NCBI RefSeq assembly: GCF_014138265.1
Contig: NZ_JACGXL010000002.1
Coordinates: 847,640 to 911,639, forward strand
DNA from: Dokdonella fugitiva
GTDB taxonomy: Bacteria > Pseudomonadota > Gammaproteobacteria > Xanthomonadales > Rhodanobacteraceae
DNA length: 64,000 bases
Direction of reading: 5' to 3'
The notes beneath the pieces were generated by a model. The model saw nothing but the letters and a program-made list of their open reading frames with translations, had not been told where the DNA came from and searched no databases. This document shows, piece after piece, positions 13,228-43,560 of this stretch. The translations under genes were made by a program, and so were the position numbers. Each line of letters opens with the position of its first letter. The first letter of the stretch is position 1.

Positions 13228-15987
13228 ATGCCAGGAGGAATCGTGCGGACCCTCGTCGCCGGCCTGCTCGCCCTGGTCGTGGTGCCGGCGCTCGGCCAGT
13301 CGCTGCCCGCGGGTTTCCGCCGCACCGACCCGATCGCCAACCGGACCTTGCCGGTCGGCGTGTTCTTCGCCCACGACGGCCGCGTGTTCGTACCCGAGAA
13401 GAGCGGCCTGGTCTGGGTCTACCAGAACCTGCTCGACGTGAATCCGCAGGTGTTCGCCGACCTGCGCGATCGCGTGCACGACAACTGGGACCGCGGCCTG
13501 CTCGGCTTCGCGCTCGATCCCGGCTTTCCGGAAATGCCCTACGTCTACGTGCAATACGCCTACAACGGCGGCTTGTTCCCGGGCAGCGATCCGGTGCCGT
13601 GGGTGCCGCGCTGGCCCAGCTGCGCGCCCGGCGACCTGTGCGGCGTCAACGGTGGCACCGACTATTGCCCGAGCCCGCCGGGCGACACCACCAACGGCGG
13701 CGGTTGCGTGATCGGCGCGCGTGTTTCTCGCCTCACGGTGAGCGGCGGCGTCGCCGGCGACGAACAGGTCCTCGTCGAGGACTGGTACCAGCAGTTCCCG
13801 AGTCATTCGATCGGCACGATCGCGTTCGGTCCGGACGGCTACCTGTACGCGGGCGGTGGCGACGGCGCGAGCTTCAACGGCCACGATTACGGGCAATGGG
13901 GCAATCCCTCCTGGCCCGACCAGCGCTCGCCGCTCAACCCCGGCAATCCAACCGACCCGGCGACCAACCACGGCGGCTCGCTGCGTTCGCAAGGCCTCGA
14001 GATCGAGGCGCAGTACAACGCGGCCGGCCACGACATCTGGCTCGACGGCGCGATCATCCGCATCGATCCGGCGACCGGCGCCGGCGCGCCCGGCAACCCA
14101 CTCGCCACCGATCCGCAGGCGAATGCGCGGCGCATCGTCGCCTACGGCCTGCGCAATCCGTTCCGCTTCACGCTCCGCCCCGGCACGGGCGAAGTCTGGG
14201 TCGGCGACGTCGGCGAGAACACCTGGGAAGAGATCAACCGCATTCCCGATCCGTCGCAGCCGAACCCCGTGCTGCAGAACTTCGGCTGGCCGTGCTACGA
14301 AGGCCGCGGCCATCACGCGGGCTTCAGCGGCCCGATCTGCACGGCGCTGTACGCGGCGGGCGATACCGGCGGACGCACGCGCCAGTCGCCCCCGTGGTAC
14401 ACCTACGTGCACTCGGGCAGCTCCGACATCACCGGGCTCGCGTTCTACACCGGCACGAGCTATCCGCCGCAGTACCACGATTCGCTGTTCTTCGCCGACA
14501 ACAGCCGCACGATCATCTTCAACATCCCGTTCGTCGACGCGAACGCGGACGGCATTCCCGATGCGCCCGCGGACAGCGGCGCGACCGCGTTCTACGGCGG
14601 AGGCAATGCGACGGCCGTGCATCTGGGCACGGGGCCCGGCGGCGACGTGTTCTTCGCCAACATCAACACCGGCAAGATCTCGCGCCTGTCCTACTGCGGC
14701 GGCGGCTGCACGAACGTCGCGCCGTCGGCCGCCGTCGCGCTCGCCGCGGGTTCGGTCGCGGGCGGCGCGCCACGCACCGTCGCGTTCAGCGCGGCGAACA
14801 GCGTCGATGCGAACGCGGGCGACGTGCTCGCCTACGCGTGGGATCTCGACGGCGACGGCGTGTTCGACGACGGCACCGCGGTCGACGCGAGCCGGTTCTA
14901 CGCCGCTGACGGCACGCACGACGTCGCCATGCAGGTATCCGACAACCACGGCGGCGTCGACGTCGCGCGCATGCGCATCACGGTCGGCAACGCCGCGCCG
15001 AGCGTGGCGATCACGAGCCCCGCGTCGAGCCTGGCATGGGCGAGCGGCGACGCGGTCGCGCTCGCGGCGACGAGCAGCGACGCCGAGCAGGGCACGTTGC
15101 CGGACGCCGCGCTCGCCTGGCAGGTCTACCGCGAGGATTGCCTGGCCCCGGATTTCACCGGCTGCAGCGAATCGTTGCTCGGCGGCTTCAGCGGCGCATC
15201 GACCGCGTTCACCGCTCCGGATGCGGCGTTCCCTGCGTACTTGCGCATCGTGCTCACCGGCACCGACAGCGGCGGCCTCACCGACACCCGGGAGGTGTCG
15301 ATCTTCCCGCTGACCGCGCAGGTCACGCTCGCCTCGGATCCGGCCGGGCTCGCGCTCGCGTTCGACGGGGGCGCGCCGTCGGCGTCGCCGTCGGCGCACA
15401 CGGTCATCGTCAATGCGAATTTCGCCGTCGCCGCACCGAGTCCGCAGTCGCTGGCCGGGACGCAGTACGCGTTCGCGTCATGGTCCGACGGCGGCGCCGC
15501 GGACCATCTCGCGCACGTCGCCGCGGCCGGTGCATCGACCCTCGTCGCGAGCTTCGTCGCGCCGGCGGATCTCTCGCTCGCGCTCGACGACGGAGCGACC
15601 GTGGTGCTCACCGGTCGGCGGCACGCATGGACGATCACGCTCGCCGACGCGGGCGTCAACGCGCTCGCGGGCGTCGCGGTGGCTTCGCTCGCAACGGCCG
15701 GACTCGACGACGTGGGCTGGAGCTGCAGCGCGACACCGGGTTCGTCGTGCGGAGCGGGCGGCAGCGGCGACATCGACGATGTCGCGGACCTCGCGAGCGG
15801 CGGCGTCGCGACCTACGTCGTCGACGCGTACGTGCGCGCGGATGCGCCGTCGAGCGTCGGCGTTTCGGCGAGCGCGCAGGTCCCGCCCGGCTACGCGAAC
15901 GCGAGTCCCGGCGACGACAGCGCGAGCGACGTCGACGTGGTGCAGTACGACCTCGTCTTCCGCGACGGCTTCGACCCGCCGGCGTGA
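13228..15987 (+). CDS. Secreted PQQ-dependent sugar dehydrogenase with PKD and C-terminal domains
   Basis: Predicted exported quinoprotein that oxidises aldose sugars. Residues 1-24 form a signal peptide; about 30-490 is the six-bladed GSDH propeller (RGLLGFALDPGFP, YLYAGGGDGASFNG, WVGDVGENTWEEINRI, FGWPCYEGRG). A PKD-like domain (about 497-590), an Ig-like segment and a DUF11-like domain (about 780-905) follow. The protein ends VFRDGFDPPA, a tail shared with the DUF5666 protein at 16708. The 919 residues are roughly twice a bare enzyme. A GGGGGAG site precedes the ATG at 13228, and a CRP/Clp palindrome sits just upstream. Substrate unknown. Confidence 0.88.
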   Translation: MPGGIVRTLVAGLLALVVVPALGQSLPAGFRRTDPIANRTLPVGVFFAHDGRVFVPEKSGLVWVYQNLLDVNPQVFADLRDRVHDNWDRGLLGFALDPGFPEMPYVYVQYAYNGGLFPGSDPVPWVPRWPSCAPGDLCGVNGGTDYCPSPPGDTTNGGGCVIGARVSRLTVSGGVAGDEQVLVEDWYQQFPSHSIGTIAFGPDGYLYAGGGDGASFNGHDYGQWGNPSWPDQRSPLNPGNPTDPATNHGGSLRSQGLEIEAQYNAAGHDIWLDGAIIRIDPATGAGAPGNPLATDPQANARRIVAYGLRNPFRFTLRPGTGEVWVGDVGENTWEEINRIPDPSQPNPVLQNFGWPCYEGRGHHAGFSGPICTALYAAGDTGGRTRQSPPWYTYVHSGSSDITGLAFYTGTSYPPQYHDSLFFADNSRTIIFNIPFVDANADGIPDAPADSGATAFYGGGNATAVHLGTGPGGDVFFANINTGKISRLSYCGGGCTNVAPSAAVALAAGSVAGGAPRTVAFSAANSVDANAGDVLAYAWDLDGDGVFDDGTAVDASRFYAADGTHDVAMQVSDNHGGVDVARMRITVGNAAPSVAITSPASSLAWASGDAVALAATSSDAEQGTLPDAALAWQVYREDCLAPDFTGCSESLLGGFSGASTAFTAPDAAFPAYLRIVLTGTDSGGLTDTREVSIFPLTAQVTLASDPAGLALAFDGGAPSASPSAHTVIVNANFAVAAPSPQSLAGTQYAFASWSDGGAADHLAHVAAAGASTLVASFVAPADLSLALDDGATVVLTGRRHAWTITLADAGVNALAGVAVASLATAGLDDVGWSCSATPGSSCGAGGSGDIDDVADLASGGVATYVVDAYVRADAPSSVGVSASAQVPPGYANASPGDDSASDVDVVQYDLVFRDGFDPPA

Positions 15988-15991
15988 GTCG

Positions 15992-16639
15992 TCAGCGCGC
16001 GGCCTTTGCGCGCAGGCTGCGCGCACGGCGCGGCGCCGGCGTCGCGTCGCCCGAGAACAGCGTGATCGCGGTGCGCGCGACCTGGCCGGTGTCGTAGTAC
16101 GCGTAGGCGCCGACGCCGAGCGCGCCGACCACGGGCAGCCAGCGCGTGATGCCACGACCGACGAGGCGCTTGGACAGGCTCAGCCCGATCTTCGCGGCGA
16201 CCTTCTCGATCAGGCGCAGCGGCACGTCCTGGATCAGCAGACGTGCGCCGACCTGCACGCCGACGTCGCGCAGCGCCTGCGCGGCCGCGTGGCGGAACAG
16301 GCAGTACAGCATGTGCGAGCGCGTGAGGTCGGCGCCGACGCCGTAGACGCCCGCGATGTCGGCGACCATCTGGCGCTGGATGCGCCAGATCGCGACGAGT
16401 TCGGGCACGATCGTCAGCCAGCCGAGCGGGCCGGGCGGCAATGCGAGCGAGCCGGCGGCGAGCGCGGCCTTGTTCGCCGCGGCAGAGGCGATCGCGCGTG
16501 CGCGATCGTCGGGCGTGCGGCTCGCGTGCTCGTCGCTGCCGGGCACGTGGCCGGCGATGTCGAGCACGGCGCGCGTGAGGCGTTCGCCGAGGCTTTCGCT
16601 CGCCGCATCGACGCGGCGCGCAGGAACGTGGCGGGTCAT
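15992..16639 (-). CDS. EcsC family protein
   Basis: A 215-residue protein of the EcsC family, named after a Bacillus ABC-transporter operon member of unclear activity. Typical elements are the long hydrophobic-amphipathic helices around PPGPLGWLTIVPELVAIWR and MVADIAGVYG, and the glycine-rich C-terminal helix near WLPVVGALGVGAYAYYD. The C-terminus is Arg/Lys-rich. The ATG at 16639 was chosen; upstream in-frame sequence is Arg-rich and unlikely. It converges on the sugar dehydrogenase with a four-base gap. Confidence 0.8.
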   Translation of the reverse strand: MTRHVPARRVDAASESLGERLTRAVLDIAGHVPGSDEHASRTPDDRARAIASAAANKAALAAGSLALPPGPLGWLTIVPELVAIWRIQRQMVADIAGVYGVGADLTRSHMLYCLFRHAAAQALRDVGVQVGARLLIQDVPLRLIEKVAAKIGLSLSKRLVGRGITRWLPVVGALGVGAYAYYDTGQVARTAITLFSGDATPAPRRARSLRAKAAR

Positions 16640-16707
16640 CGGCGCCCTCCGGCGCGCAAGCATTCGCCGCAGTCTCGCATGCGCCGCCTGTACGCGCGGC
16701 GACCGGC

Positions 16708-18162
16708 TCAGTCGAAACCGTCGGCGAACAGCGCGTCGCCCGCGCGCAGCGTGCCGACGACGAGCATGCGCGGCGCGTCGGCCGGCGGCGGGTCGAGTGG
16801 CGCGATCAGCGCGACCACCCCGCCGGCGAGCGTGTCGACGCCGTTCCACGCGCCGCTCTGCTCGACGAGTGCGCCGGGCACGGCGCCGGCGAAGAACGCG
16901 TCGGCGTCGATCGCATTGCCGGCCGGATCTTCGAACGTCGCGCCGGTCGCGTCGAGCGTGAGCCCGAGCACGGACATCAGCGGACGCGCGACGCTTTCGA
17001 CCGGACCGCCCGCGCGCGCGTCGGCCGGATCGGGCGCGCCGCGCAGGCGCGCGCGCGTCGCCCAGCGCTGGCCGACGCGATCGAGATAGCCGCGCAGTTC
17101 GACCTGGGCCGGCTGGCCGATGCCGCTCGCGTAGATCCCGTCCTCGTCGCGCAACTGCGCCGCGCGGCGCACGGTGTTGCCGAGCAGGGTGACCGTGCCG
17201 TCTGCACCGGCCTGCACGTCGGCGGGATCGACCGGGCCTTCGAGGCGGATCATCGGTGCGTCGAACTGGATGCCTTGCGCCGCGAACGCGCCGCCGGCAC
17301 CGAACACGCCGTCGACTTCGATCGCCGCGCCGGCGACGAGATCCTCCGCGCTGCCGTAGCGGAACTCGGTGCTCGCGTCGTAGCTGACCGTGTACGGCCC
17401 GAACGTGAAACTGCTCGCGTCGACCACGCCGACGAGGCCGGTGAGCGCGCCGAGCGCGCCCGGCGTGCCGACCGGCATCGGCGTGGCGCAGGCGAGGCGC
17501 GTCACGCTGTCGAGCACGCTCGCAGCGTCGAAGCCGGGGATCGCGTCAGCCCGGATCTGGACGTACTGCCCTGCCGCGACGCTACCGCCGCAGTCGATCG
17601 GCGTGACGCCGGCGACGCTCACGCGTTGCGGGCCGATCGAGATTTCGTCGCCGTTCGCGGCGTCCACGTAGCCGGACAGCAGCCAGCGCGGCGTCGGCGT
17701 CGGCAGGTATTCGACGAACGAGGCGAGCAGGCTCGCGTTGGCGTCGACGTAGCCGCTCACGTCGAGATGGTCGCCGAGCGCGACGTTGCCGATCGCGCCG
17801 CCGGGCACGCCCGTGAGGCGCGTGTCGGCGGTGACGGTGACTTCCTGGCCGAGCACGCGCAGCGGCACGACCGACGTGACCGGGCCGCGCACCGCGTAGG
17901 AGAACACCACGGTCGCCGCCGCCGGCACGCCGAGCGGTGCGGCGGTCGCGGCATAGCGTGCCTCGACGCGCAGGCCGGGCTTGTCGGGCAACGCACTGCC
18001 GGACGGCAACACCGCGTCGTCGACGACGACCTGCGTCTGCGCATCGACGCGCACGGCATGTCCGTTGACGTCGATGGTCTCGACCGCGCCCGCCAGGGCG
18101 CAGCCGCCGGTCATGGCCGCGCCGAGCAGCCGAGGGAGAGTCCGGGAAGATTTCGCTCGCAT
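16708..18162 (-). CDS. Secreted DUF5666-repeat protein with FADGFD tail
   Basis: A 484-residue exported protein. The N-terminus (MRAKSSRTLPRLLGAAMTGG, then CALAGAVETI) looks like a signal peptide. The body consists of repeated beta-rich units with the DUF5666 look: short runs such as VSGYVDANASLLAS, LSGYVDAANGDEISIGPQ and VDGVFGAGGAFAAQGI, each ending in a G-x-V-type strand. The protein ends ALFADGFD, nearly the same as the tail of the dehydrogenase at 13228. The ATG at 18162 starts the signal peptide. Function unknown; a secreted or surface protein is likely. Confidence 0.7.
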   Translation of the reverse strand: MRAKSSRTLPRLLGAAMTGGCALAGAVETIDVNGHAVRVDAQTQVVVDDAVLPSGSALPDKPGLRVEARYAATAAPLGVPAAATVVFSYAVRGPVTSVVPLRVLGQEVTVTADTRLTGVPGGAIGNVALGDHLDVSGYVDANASLLASFVEYLPTPTPRWLLSGYVDAANGDEISIGPQRVSVAGVTPIDCGGSVAAGQYVQIRADAIPGFDAASVLDSVTRLACATPMPVGTPGALGALTGLVGVVDASSFTFGPYTVSYDASTEFRYGSAEDLVAGAAIEVDGVFGAGGAFAAQGIQFDAPMIRLEGPVDPADVQAGADGTVTLLGNTVRRAAQLRDEDGIYASGIGQPAQVELRGYLDRVGQRWATRARLRGAPDPADARAGGPVESVARPLMSVLGLTLDATGATFEDPAGNAIDADAFFAGAVPGALVEQSGAWNGVDTLAGGVVALIAPLDPPPADAPRMLVVGTLRAGDALFADGFD

Positions 18163-42426: not shown

Positions 42427-43560
42427 TCAATACATGCCGTGCGTCTGCTTGACGTGCTCGAGCGAGACGCGCCCGCGCAGCACGCGATAGACCCAGCTCG
42501 TGTAGGCGAGCACGATCGGCAGCAGCAGCGCGGTCACGAGCAGCATGAGGCCGAGCGTCGTGCGGCTGCTCGATGCGTCCCACACGGTGAGGCTGCTGCG
42601 CGGGTCGAGGCTCGACGGCAGCAGGAACGGGAACAGCGCGAAGCCGGCCGAGAACACCGTCGCGAACACCGCGCACGCGCTCGCGAAGAATGCGCCGCGA
42701 TGGCGTGCGCGCGCAGCGAGCAGCGCGGCGCCGAGCGCGGCCGCGATCGCCAGCGCGGCGGTGCCGCAGGCCCAGCCACCGAGCGCGCCGTCGCGCAGCC
42801 AGTTCACGCCGGTGACGACCGTCTTCATCAGCGGATTCGACGGCGCGGCGGCCTGCACCGGCGAGGAAATCGCGTAGCCGCCGACGCCGACGAACAGATA
42901 GGCGCCGGCGAGCACGTAGGTGGCGACGAACGCGACGGCGGCGAGACGCAGCATGCGCTCGGCGCGTCGCGCGATCACCGCTTCGGACTTGAGCGCAGCC
43001 CAGGCGGCGCCGTGCATGAGCAGCATCGCGACCGAGACGAGGCCGGCGAGCAGTGCGAACGGTCGCAGCAGGCCGAAGAAGCCGCCTTCGTAGCTCATGC
43101 GCAACGTGTCGTCGTAGCGGAACGGCACGCCGAGGAACAGGTTGCCGATCGCGACGCCGAAGATCAGCGCGGGCACGAGCCCCGACAGCGTGAGCAGCCA
43201 GTCCCACGCACCGCGCCAGCGCGGGTCGGCGATCTTGTTGCGGAAGCCGAAGCCGACCGGGCGCAGGATGAACGCGAGCAGCACGAGCAGGATCGCGAAG
43301 TAGAAGCCGGAGAACGACGCCGCGTAGAGCAGCGGCCACGCCGCGAACACCGCGCCGCCGCCGAGGATGAACCAGACCTGGTTTCCTTCCCACACCGGCT
43401 CGATCGTCTCGAGCAGCGCTCGTCGCTCGTCGTCGTCCCTGGCGAGCACGCGCAGCAGCGCGGCGACGCCGAGGTCGAAACCGTCCATGACCGCGAAGCC
43501 GGCGAGCAGCACGCCGAGCAGCAGCCACCAGATCACGCGCAGGGTTTCGTAGTCGATCAT
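42427..43560 (-). CDS. cydB: Cytochrome bd ubiquinol oxidase subunit II
   Basis: Membrane subunit of the quinol-oxidising, oxygen-reducing cytochrome bd complex. It starts [20 protein letters not shown] then [10 protein letters not shown], and has about eight membrane helices and [20 protein letters not shown]. 377 residues, standard. It follows cydA by 22 bases. Confidence 0.96.

Follow-up and report, generated by a model that had tools for sequence, protein, structure and literature searches.

A nine-residue end tag on exported proteins of Lysobacterales whose presence mostly follows that of a second type II secretion system

A stretch of 64,000 nucleotides from Dokdonella fugitiva (contig NZ_JACGXL010000002.1, positions 847,640 to 911,639), referred to below as the window, encodes two exported proteins that end in the same kind of short tail, D-x-[ILV]-F-x-[DN]-G-F-[DE]. 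The tail is established here as a new tag at the ends of exported proteins in Lysobacterales, and across genomes it is mostly present or absent together with one of the two type II secretion systems (T2SSs) of the cell, hereafter T2SS-A. The tag itself, its position, its link with exported proteins, its independence of the carrier and its distribution together with T2SS-A, including a lineage that uses a variant tail, are all observed. The reading that we favour, with a probability of roughly 0.55, takes the tail for a short targeting tag at the protein end, borne by the cargo of a dedicated T2SS-A.

The first carrier, an open reading frame (ORF) at 13228..15987 (+), codes for an exported glucose/sorbosone dehydrogenase-like protein of 919 residues with a PKD domain (GSDH, E 2.3e-23; PKD_4, E 3.3e-08). 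Its predicted signal peptide, MPGGIVRTLVAGLLALVVVPALG, of about 23 residues (13228..13296, +), was recognised by a heuristic and by direct sequence reading, and its tail, DLVFRDGFDPPA or D-L-V-F-R-D-G-F-D-P-P-A (15949..15984, +), contains the core D-L-V-F-R-D-G-F-D at 15949-15975 and is followed by the stop codon at 15985-15987. The second carrier is an exported DUF5666 protein of 484 residues (ORF 16708..18162, -; DUF5666, E 3.8e-29) that starts with the ATG at 18162; its signal peptide, MRAKSSRTLPRLLGAAMTGGCALAGA (18085..18162, -), is predicted by eye from this start, and its tail, D-A-L-F-A-D-G-F-D, forms the extreme C-terminus (16711..16737, -, from the ORF translation), directly before the stop codon at 16708-16710. 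The original prediction, namely that both proteins have signal peptides and share a C-terminal F-x-D-G-F-D while being otherwise unrelated, is thus borne out by the ORF translations at both tails, by the two signal peptides, the DUF5666 one being judged by eye, and by the Pfam domains, which are unrelated. An EcsC-like gene (Pfam E 0.0029, under the family cut-off) lies between the two genes, which are therefore not neighbours in one operon. Relatives of the two carriers are scarce among the 92 named tail loci described below, with only two distant ones for the GSDH protein and none for the DUF5666 protein. The window also holds a third motif match, ISGFDG, near the end of 42545-42877 (+), a short ORF in competition with longer ones and lacking a signal peptide; this match is probably due to chance.

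The tail is abundant throughout the 4.77 Mb genome of D. fugitiva. With DNA-level patterns, the loose motif F-x-[DNSG]-G-F-[DE] gave 183 matches against 3 for the reversed pattern, and the strict motif D-x-[ILVM]-F-x-[DN]-G-F-[DE] gave 132 against 0. Its position was then read at the protein level in an unselected sample of 864 kb, made of two 400 kb stretches and the window and containing 750 called genes (given the 70% GC of the genome, the training seed for gene calling was selected by codon-position GC). There, 15 of the 23 copies of the motif fall within 26 residues of the protein end, a region in which an even spread would place 1.7. Furthermore, a signal peptide was predicted for 14 of the 15 tailed genes versus 280 of the 735 others (Fisher p 1.6e-5), with a permissive heuristic that is positive for 39% of genes; the fifteenth tailed gene encodes the window DUF5666 protein, in which a signal peptide can be seen once the true start is used. 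Hence the check proposed with the original prediction, once run on this sample, shows the motif enriched at C-termini as well as among signal-peptide genes, and the suggestion of a sorting, secretion or processing tag is supported, as far as sequences can tell, by this genome-wide, C-terminal and signal-peptide-linked distribution.

In order to describe the tail itself, 80 loose-motif copies, a part of the genome total, were inspected. Sixty-five of them are C-terminal, 12 lie further inside the protein and 3 look non-coding and were dropped on the grounds of their codon positions. The claim that the tail stands at the very C-terminus holds for these 65 copies but not for a minority found behind a signal peptide or between domains. 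Among the 65 tails, the motif is followed by 0 to 5 residues in 56, and columns that were left free in the search turn out to be conserved: 57 tails have D at -3, all have I, L or V at -1, and 62 have D or N at +2. The DNA encoding the tail differs in all 65 cases, which rules out a DNA-level repeat or uptake sequence, and mean nucleotide identity is 0.73 over the tail codons versus 0.34 over the 90 nucleotides before them. A membrane-like 19-mer within the last 60 residues is present in 2 of the 65 and at least two K or R after the motif in 3, and no conserved cysteine was seen among the 24 tail columns counted.

The carriers are diverse. A census of 62 tailed proteins, that is, the 65 without two sequences shorter than 90 residues and without the short window ORF 42545-42877 (which is counted among the 65), matched 60 Pfam families, and the 25 of these that were listed include FG-GAP and PQQ propellers, beta-helices, subtilases, metallopeptidases and phospholipase C. 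The same proteins matched 46 NCBIfam families. The choice-of-anchor Q domain is present in 11 of the 62, a name that we take to be used for domains met with varying anchors, and single proteins match models of MYXO-CTERM-anchored and rhombosortase-dependent families. No model of the tail itself is among the 25 families listed of the 60 in Pfam and of the 46 in NCBIfam, and the tail lies outside every listed match both in 10 proteins (NCBIfam) and in the two tailed window proteins (Pfam). The relatives of a tailed subtilase in other genera show how the tail is combined with its carrier: in 4 of the 7 long matches read, a tail-like end directly follows the catalytic domain, while the D. fugitiva protein has extra sequence between the two. 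The four ends are VFADGFETAR, VFSNGFE, MYRDGFE and a decayed IFATGHE. The tail thus behaves as a separate module and is independent of its carrier protein.

Some copies occupy other places. A minority stand directly behind the signal peptide, as in SAQ-PIFNNGFE (locus L081), SAQ-PIFADGFE (L118) and AAGSCDTIFASGFE (L050); among the five such copies examined, the one of L095 is a chance-looking match in a membrane protein and that of L005 is doubtful. In L046, L055, L063 and L128 the motif lies at an apparent domain junction and is followed by 100-600 more residues, giving the impression of a tailed protein joined to a further domain. At the C-terminus of L222 two full tails stand in tandem, VIFKDGFDEFIDLIFADGFE, and at that of L194 a changed copy precedes a full tail, LIFKNSFEAQIDLIFANGFE.

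The taxonomic range of the tail was followed in two ways. A named scan with one genome per species gave 92 stretches, and among the 80 of them that were listed nearly all belong to Lysobacterales or its genera, such as Dokdonella, Rudaea, Tahibacter, Pseudofulvimonas, Marinicella, Wenzhouxiangella, Pseudolysobacter and others; three are Alcanivoracaceae, one is from Pseudomonadales and several are assigned only to Gammaproteobacteria or Proteobacteria. An order-wide survey then covered 398 genomes of the order of the window, designated by genome (G), family (f) and genus (g) codes, of which we infer f1 to be Rhodanobacteraceae and f2 Lysobacteraceae. Across these genomes the strict motif is near all-or-none. 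In f1 it occurs 23-163 times per genome in four genera and 0-1 times in the remaining ones, and in f2 two genomes hold 9 and 11 copies and the others 0-1. Outside the order, 205 of 213 genomes of the phylum have no strict motif and 8 have a single match. The original statement that such tails occur in Rhodanobacteraceae is therefore right for Dokdonella, Tahibacter, Rudaea and further members of the family; Marinicella, Wenzhouxiangella and others have tails too, and most sampled genera of the family have none.

The association with T2SS-A was seen in a set of 42 genomes, 22 picked for many loose-motif matches (28 to 218) and 20 for few. Two GspD secretins above the TIGR02517 cut-off are present in 22/22 motif-rich genomes versus 4/20 motif-poor ones; G005 and G371 count as tail-bearing on the loose motif only (28 matches each versus 2 and 3 for the control, with 2 and 0 strict ones). 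A GspD tree of 60 sequences, built by a quick method with Shimodaira-Hasegawa-like approximate likelihood-ratio (SH-aLRT) supports and including all 22 type-A and 15 of the 22 type-B copies, groups the second GspDs of the 22 motif-rich genomes in a core type-A clade together with that of G029, a genome picked as tail-poor that carries 7 variant tails and 1 canonical tail. The core clade is thus represented in 23/23 tail-bearing and 0/19 tail-less genomes; among the latter, G001 has no GspD above the cut-off, and the below-cut-off copy of G075 was left out of the tree. G061 and G131, by their second GspD, and G230, by its only one, fall outside the core. In the type-B part of the tree tail-less genomes stand in three separate places, namely an f1 clade, f8 and the crown of f2, to which tail-bearing G237 is sister. 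On the basis of this gene tree rather than a species tree, the tail and T2SS-A thus look jointly lost at least three times.

A profile built from the 22 type-A GspDs was next run on the 398 genomes. Tail-bearing here means at least 3 matches to the canonical strict and variant strict patterns combined, and core T2SS-A was counted by hand at scores of at least about 1.15 bits per aligned position, which leaves out Xcs-like scores (0.94 and below) and G230, G366, G275 and G314 (about 1.05); G177 and G229 were counted in by E-value and family. Both tail and T2SS-A were found in 112 genomes, T2SS-A only in 13, tail only in 15 and neither in 258 (p 4e-66, a value that ignores kinship), so that T2SS-A is present in 112/127 tail-bearing versus 13/271 other genomes. 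At a looser threshold, five of the 15 tail-only genomes hold type-A-like GspD fragments (G118, G153 and G212, with G123 and G167 borderline). In f1, whose 125 genomes are all at least 99% complete, T2SS-A occurs in 20/20 tail-bearing genomes and 1/105 others (G257), and in the 128 genomes of f2 it occurs in 3/3 tail-bearing ones (G371 by the loose motif) and 1/125 others (G335).

The pseudopilin GspG gives a consistent picture. A high-scoring GspG (176-194 bits) is present in all 12 tail-bearing genomes tested, including G037, which carries the variant tail. Of 12 tail-less genomes 9 lack it, and the three that have one are G075 (171-175 bits) and G257 and G335, two exceptions known beforehand and included as such. 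The genes gspD-A and gspG-A are far apart or on separate contigs in all 12 genomes with tails, whereas in G257, G335 and G075 the high-scoring gspG is within about 5 kb of a gspD. The split arrangement is hence a further mark of the tail-associated system. The close T2SS-A-like GspD and GspG genes of G257 (C1:1333615-1338601) and G335 (C44:27309-32358), where strict tails are absent, possibly belong to a differently used or acquired relative of T2SS-A. The idea of looking for a co-occurring processing enzyme has therefore led to a co-occurring machine, but to a second T2SS and not to a processing enzyme.

A variant of the tail was found in genus g33 (family f10), whose genomes have 0-2 canonical tails and, in 27 of 30, T2SS-A. 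In 440 kb of G037 (331 genes) no protein ends in the canonical tail, and several end in [ILV]-F-x-D-R-F-[EQD]; a regular expression for this variant has 14 matches in 127,068 residues, all 14 within the last 18 residues of a protein. At least 3 tails of the form F-x-D-[RS]-F-[EQD], and up to 58, are present in 23 of the 27 g33 genomes with T2SS-A, compared with none of the 228 f1 and f2 genomes without it.

The D. fugitiva T2SS-A genes lie outside the window. Those for gspC, gspD, gspE and gspF are at C7:79500-99000 (L289; C, E and F by Pfam, D by TIGR02517) and that for GspG-A at C6:69415-69816 (L329; GspG profile), where the following genes stand in the order expected for H to N, judging by gene order and start sequences. 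All 9 GspC-A proteins tested have, beside a T2SSC domain, a PDZ match at the C-terminus (best E values between 5e-11 and 1.4e-3), and 3 of the 9 exceed a PDZ gathering score; the sole type-B counterpart examined, from D. fugitiva itself, is weakly XpsN-like (41 bits, with a curated cut-off of 400) and has no PDZ.

Several observations concern the surroundings of these genes and of the tailed ones. In G279, two tailed proteins ending in DDTLFRDGFD and GRDVIFRDGFD are encoded divergently to gspC-A (L290:1407-5590), and in D. fugitiva the divergent neighbour of gspC-A (L289:5591-7102), with a weak delta-60-repeat match, ends in DDTIFRYGAE, a decayed-looking tail. Exported proteins of about 480-500 residues with GQxLxxPYxTVN are encoded inside the D. 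fugitiva T2SS-A locus (L289:11986-13422, C7) and beside its T2SS-B genes (L249:6632-8137, C4); possibly they are of the NpdA surface-layer (S-layer) kind. The first of them, of 478 residues, has no relative in the other type-A loci compared. Genes for an extracytoplasmic function (ECF) sigma factor and a serine/threonine kinase adjoin the T2SS-A locus (L289:2384-5513), and both have relatives in L292. Among the neighbours of tailed genes in the 92 named loci, the largest conserved families are tailed paralogues, and the commonest non-tailed one is an ECF sigma factor family (L159, L161, L189, L209 and L221, two of them also with a kinase). At 5 of 92 loci, the ECF sigma factor is too rare to be a partner of the tail.

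Given these results, the favoured model can be put as follows. Cargo would reach the periplasm by means of its signal peptide and fold there with the tag left on a free end; the PDZ domain of GspC-A, or else the secretin, would most likely bind the tag first, and T2SS-A would then move the tagged cargo across the outer membrane. Export by T2SS-A, reading of the tag by T2SS-A and the PDZ domain as reader are what we infer from the distribution described above. A bolder version, to which we give slightly less than even odds, is that the tail is the first linear, transferable T2SS signal, by which T2SS-A, probably through the PDZ domain of GspC, picks more than 100 otherwise unrelated folded proteins from the periplasm, with a lineage-specific dialect F-x-D-[RS]-F-[EQD] that changed together with the machine.

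Several results weigh against the targeting model. All support for the model is correlation, and the link between tail and T2SS-A has exceptions on both sides. Ten tail-bearing genomes have no type-A GspD even when fragments are included (G048, G059, G063, G097, G122, G168, G178, G182, G188 and G209); eight of them are 73-90% complete, and the two others, G063 and G097 of f8, are 97-98% complete and hold 8 and 3 strict or variant tails. Indeed, the link is weak in f8, where T2SS-A occurs in 3/6 tail-bearing genomes, with a fragment counted, and 4/33 others. Moreover, T2SS-A is accompanied by fewer than 3 strict tails in 13 genomes, among them G371 and G005, which are rich in the loose motif, and G257 and G335, whose gsp genes form one cluster. 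As to the variant lineage, the three g33 genomes without a T2SS-A match (G168, G188 and G209, 73-84% complete) have 23-26 variant tails each, and the signal-peptide enrichment of the variant in G037 is non-significant (10/14 versus 140/317, p 0.056). Tailed genes are not enriched beside T2SS-A loci: stretches of 252 kb and 209 kb there hold 2 and 1, whereas 800 kb of the D. fugitiva genome hold 10. Finally, copies at the mature N-terminus do not fit the classical binding of a free C-terminus by PDZ domains, and the end of the tail is acidic and not hydrophobic, which is a misfit with such binding as well.

The main rival, unlikely in our judgement, is retention at the surface: the protein would be exported by T2SS-A or another route, and an S-layer protein or outer-membrane receptor would then bind the tail and hold the protein on the cell. 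A receptor tag would function at either end of a protein, which matches the copies observed, and the choice-of-anchor Q domain of 11 of the 62 tailed proteins, together with the single matches to MYXO-CTERM-anchored and rhombosortase-dependent families, points the same way. So do two papers, one in which a Wenzhouxiangella strain keeps its protease activity bound to the cell, with none in the medium (PMC7691419; tails are known there at the level of the genus, L202), and one in which NpdA S-layer genes stand beside gsp clusters in Beta- and Gammaproteobacteria (PMC10765051), as do the GQxLxxPYxTVN exported proteins of both D. fugitiva T2SS loci. However, no receptor was found, the 478-residue protein being confined to its own locus among the type-A loci compared, and retention would explain the link with T2SS-A only indirectly.

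Still less probable is that tails and T2SS-A merely share a lifestyle and were lost together through the shedding of a large surface proteome, with no interaction between them. At least one cargo family was lost too, since relatives of the tailed subtilase occur in 6/7 tail-bearing genomes versus 0/36 others (of which G029 and G044 have variant tails). Against a mere shared lifestyle, something must read a motif of nine residues that is conserved on unrelated proteins, the lineage in which the variant tail is concentrated retains T2SS-A, and 18 of the 19 tail-less genomes have kept a GspD above the cut-off. The least probable of the three rivals, with very little in our estimate to recommend it, is a cleavage tag at which a protease or transpeptidase would cut or join, as sortases, exosortases, rhombosortase and myxosortase do. 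The C-terminal position and the many-to-one use do recall sortase-type systems, but the scarcity of membrane-like stretches (2/65) and of basic residues after the motif (3/65) speaks against it, and copies directly behind a signal peptide cannot be C-terminal cleavage sites. Exosortase (PF09721) is lacking in 8 of 22 tail-bearing genomes, among them G000, G279 and G348, the three tested that belong to the genus of D. fugitiva, and is therefore ruled out as partner; rhombosortase and sortase were not searched.

How a T2SS recognises folded cargo is a long-standing open question. A nine-residue tag tied to one of the two T2SSs of a cell makes cargo recognition directly testable, with the second T2SS as internal control, and the targeting model, if true, would allow exoproteins to be predicted across Lysobacterales and perhaps proteins to be exported deliberately. 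Among the matches listed for the open-access literature no paper describes the tail, and letter-string matches were often unrelated words such as Fangfeng.

Compared with known terminal signals, the tail resembles MYXO-CTERM, GlyGly-CTERM and PEP-CTERM in that dozens of exported proteins, otherwise unrelated, share a short tag at the C-terminus and that its distribution across taxa is sporadic. Those signals are about 25 residues long, whereas the tail has nine residues, is also found at the mature N-terminus and does not have exosortase as partner. Their anatomy differs as well. PEP-CTERM, the exosortase signal, has a transmembrane helix and a basic C-terminal end, and the Lysobacterales tail has neither; GlyGly-CTERM, the rhombosortase signal, is defined by Gly-Gly, a transmembrane helix and a basic end, an anatomy that the tail does not share; and MYXO-CTERM, the myxosortase signal, has an invariant cysteine, a transmembrane helix and an arginine-rich end, unlike the tail with neither conserved cysteine nor membrane helix. 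MYXO-CTERM and GlyGly-CTERM proteins depend on a T2SS for crossing the outer membrane (PMC11980579).

On the side of the machine, T2SS-A has gspC, D, E and F and the pseudopilin GspG as expected of a T2SS, and the tailed proteins resemble T2SS substrates in two respects, with signal peptides in 14 of 15 (the fifteenth by eye) and a T2SS in the same genome in 22/22. The Xcs T2SS of Xanthomonas is likewise a second T2SS in the same order; the second GspDs of G061 and G131 (f2), genomes without strict tails, adjoin the type-A clade in the tree outside its core and are putative Xcs secretins. A further parallel is with VesB and EpsC of Vibrio cholerae and OutC of Dickeya, where, as here, exoproteins with signal peptides go together with a PDZ-bearing GspC. 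According to PMC12369372, the PDZ domain of EpsC is required for the secretion of one substrate, part of the cargo depends on a PDZ-bearing GspC, and the canonical binding site of PDZ domains is the very C-terminus of their partners. The prevailing view is that the T2SS signal is structural (PMC7949064), and a 2025 paper has it that no conserved T2SS signal has been identified (PMC11981180). The cargo information known so far lies in folded domains or composite loops, examples being the immunoglobulin fold of VesB and Pel3 (PMC7949064), whereas the tail of the Lysobacterales proteins is a linear and widely shared motif.

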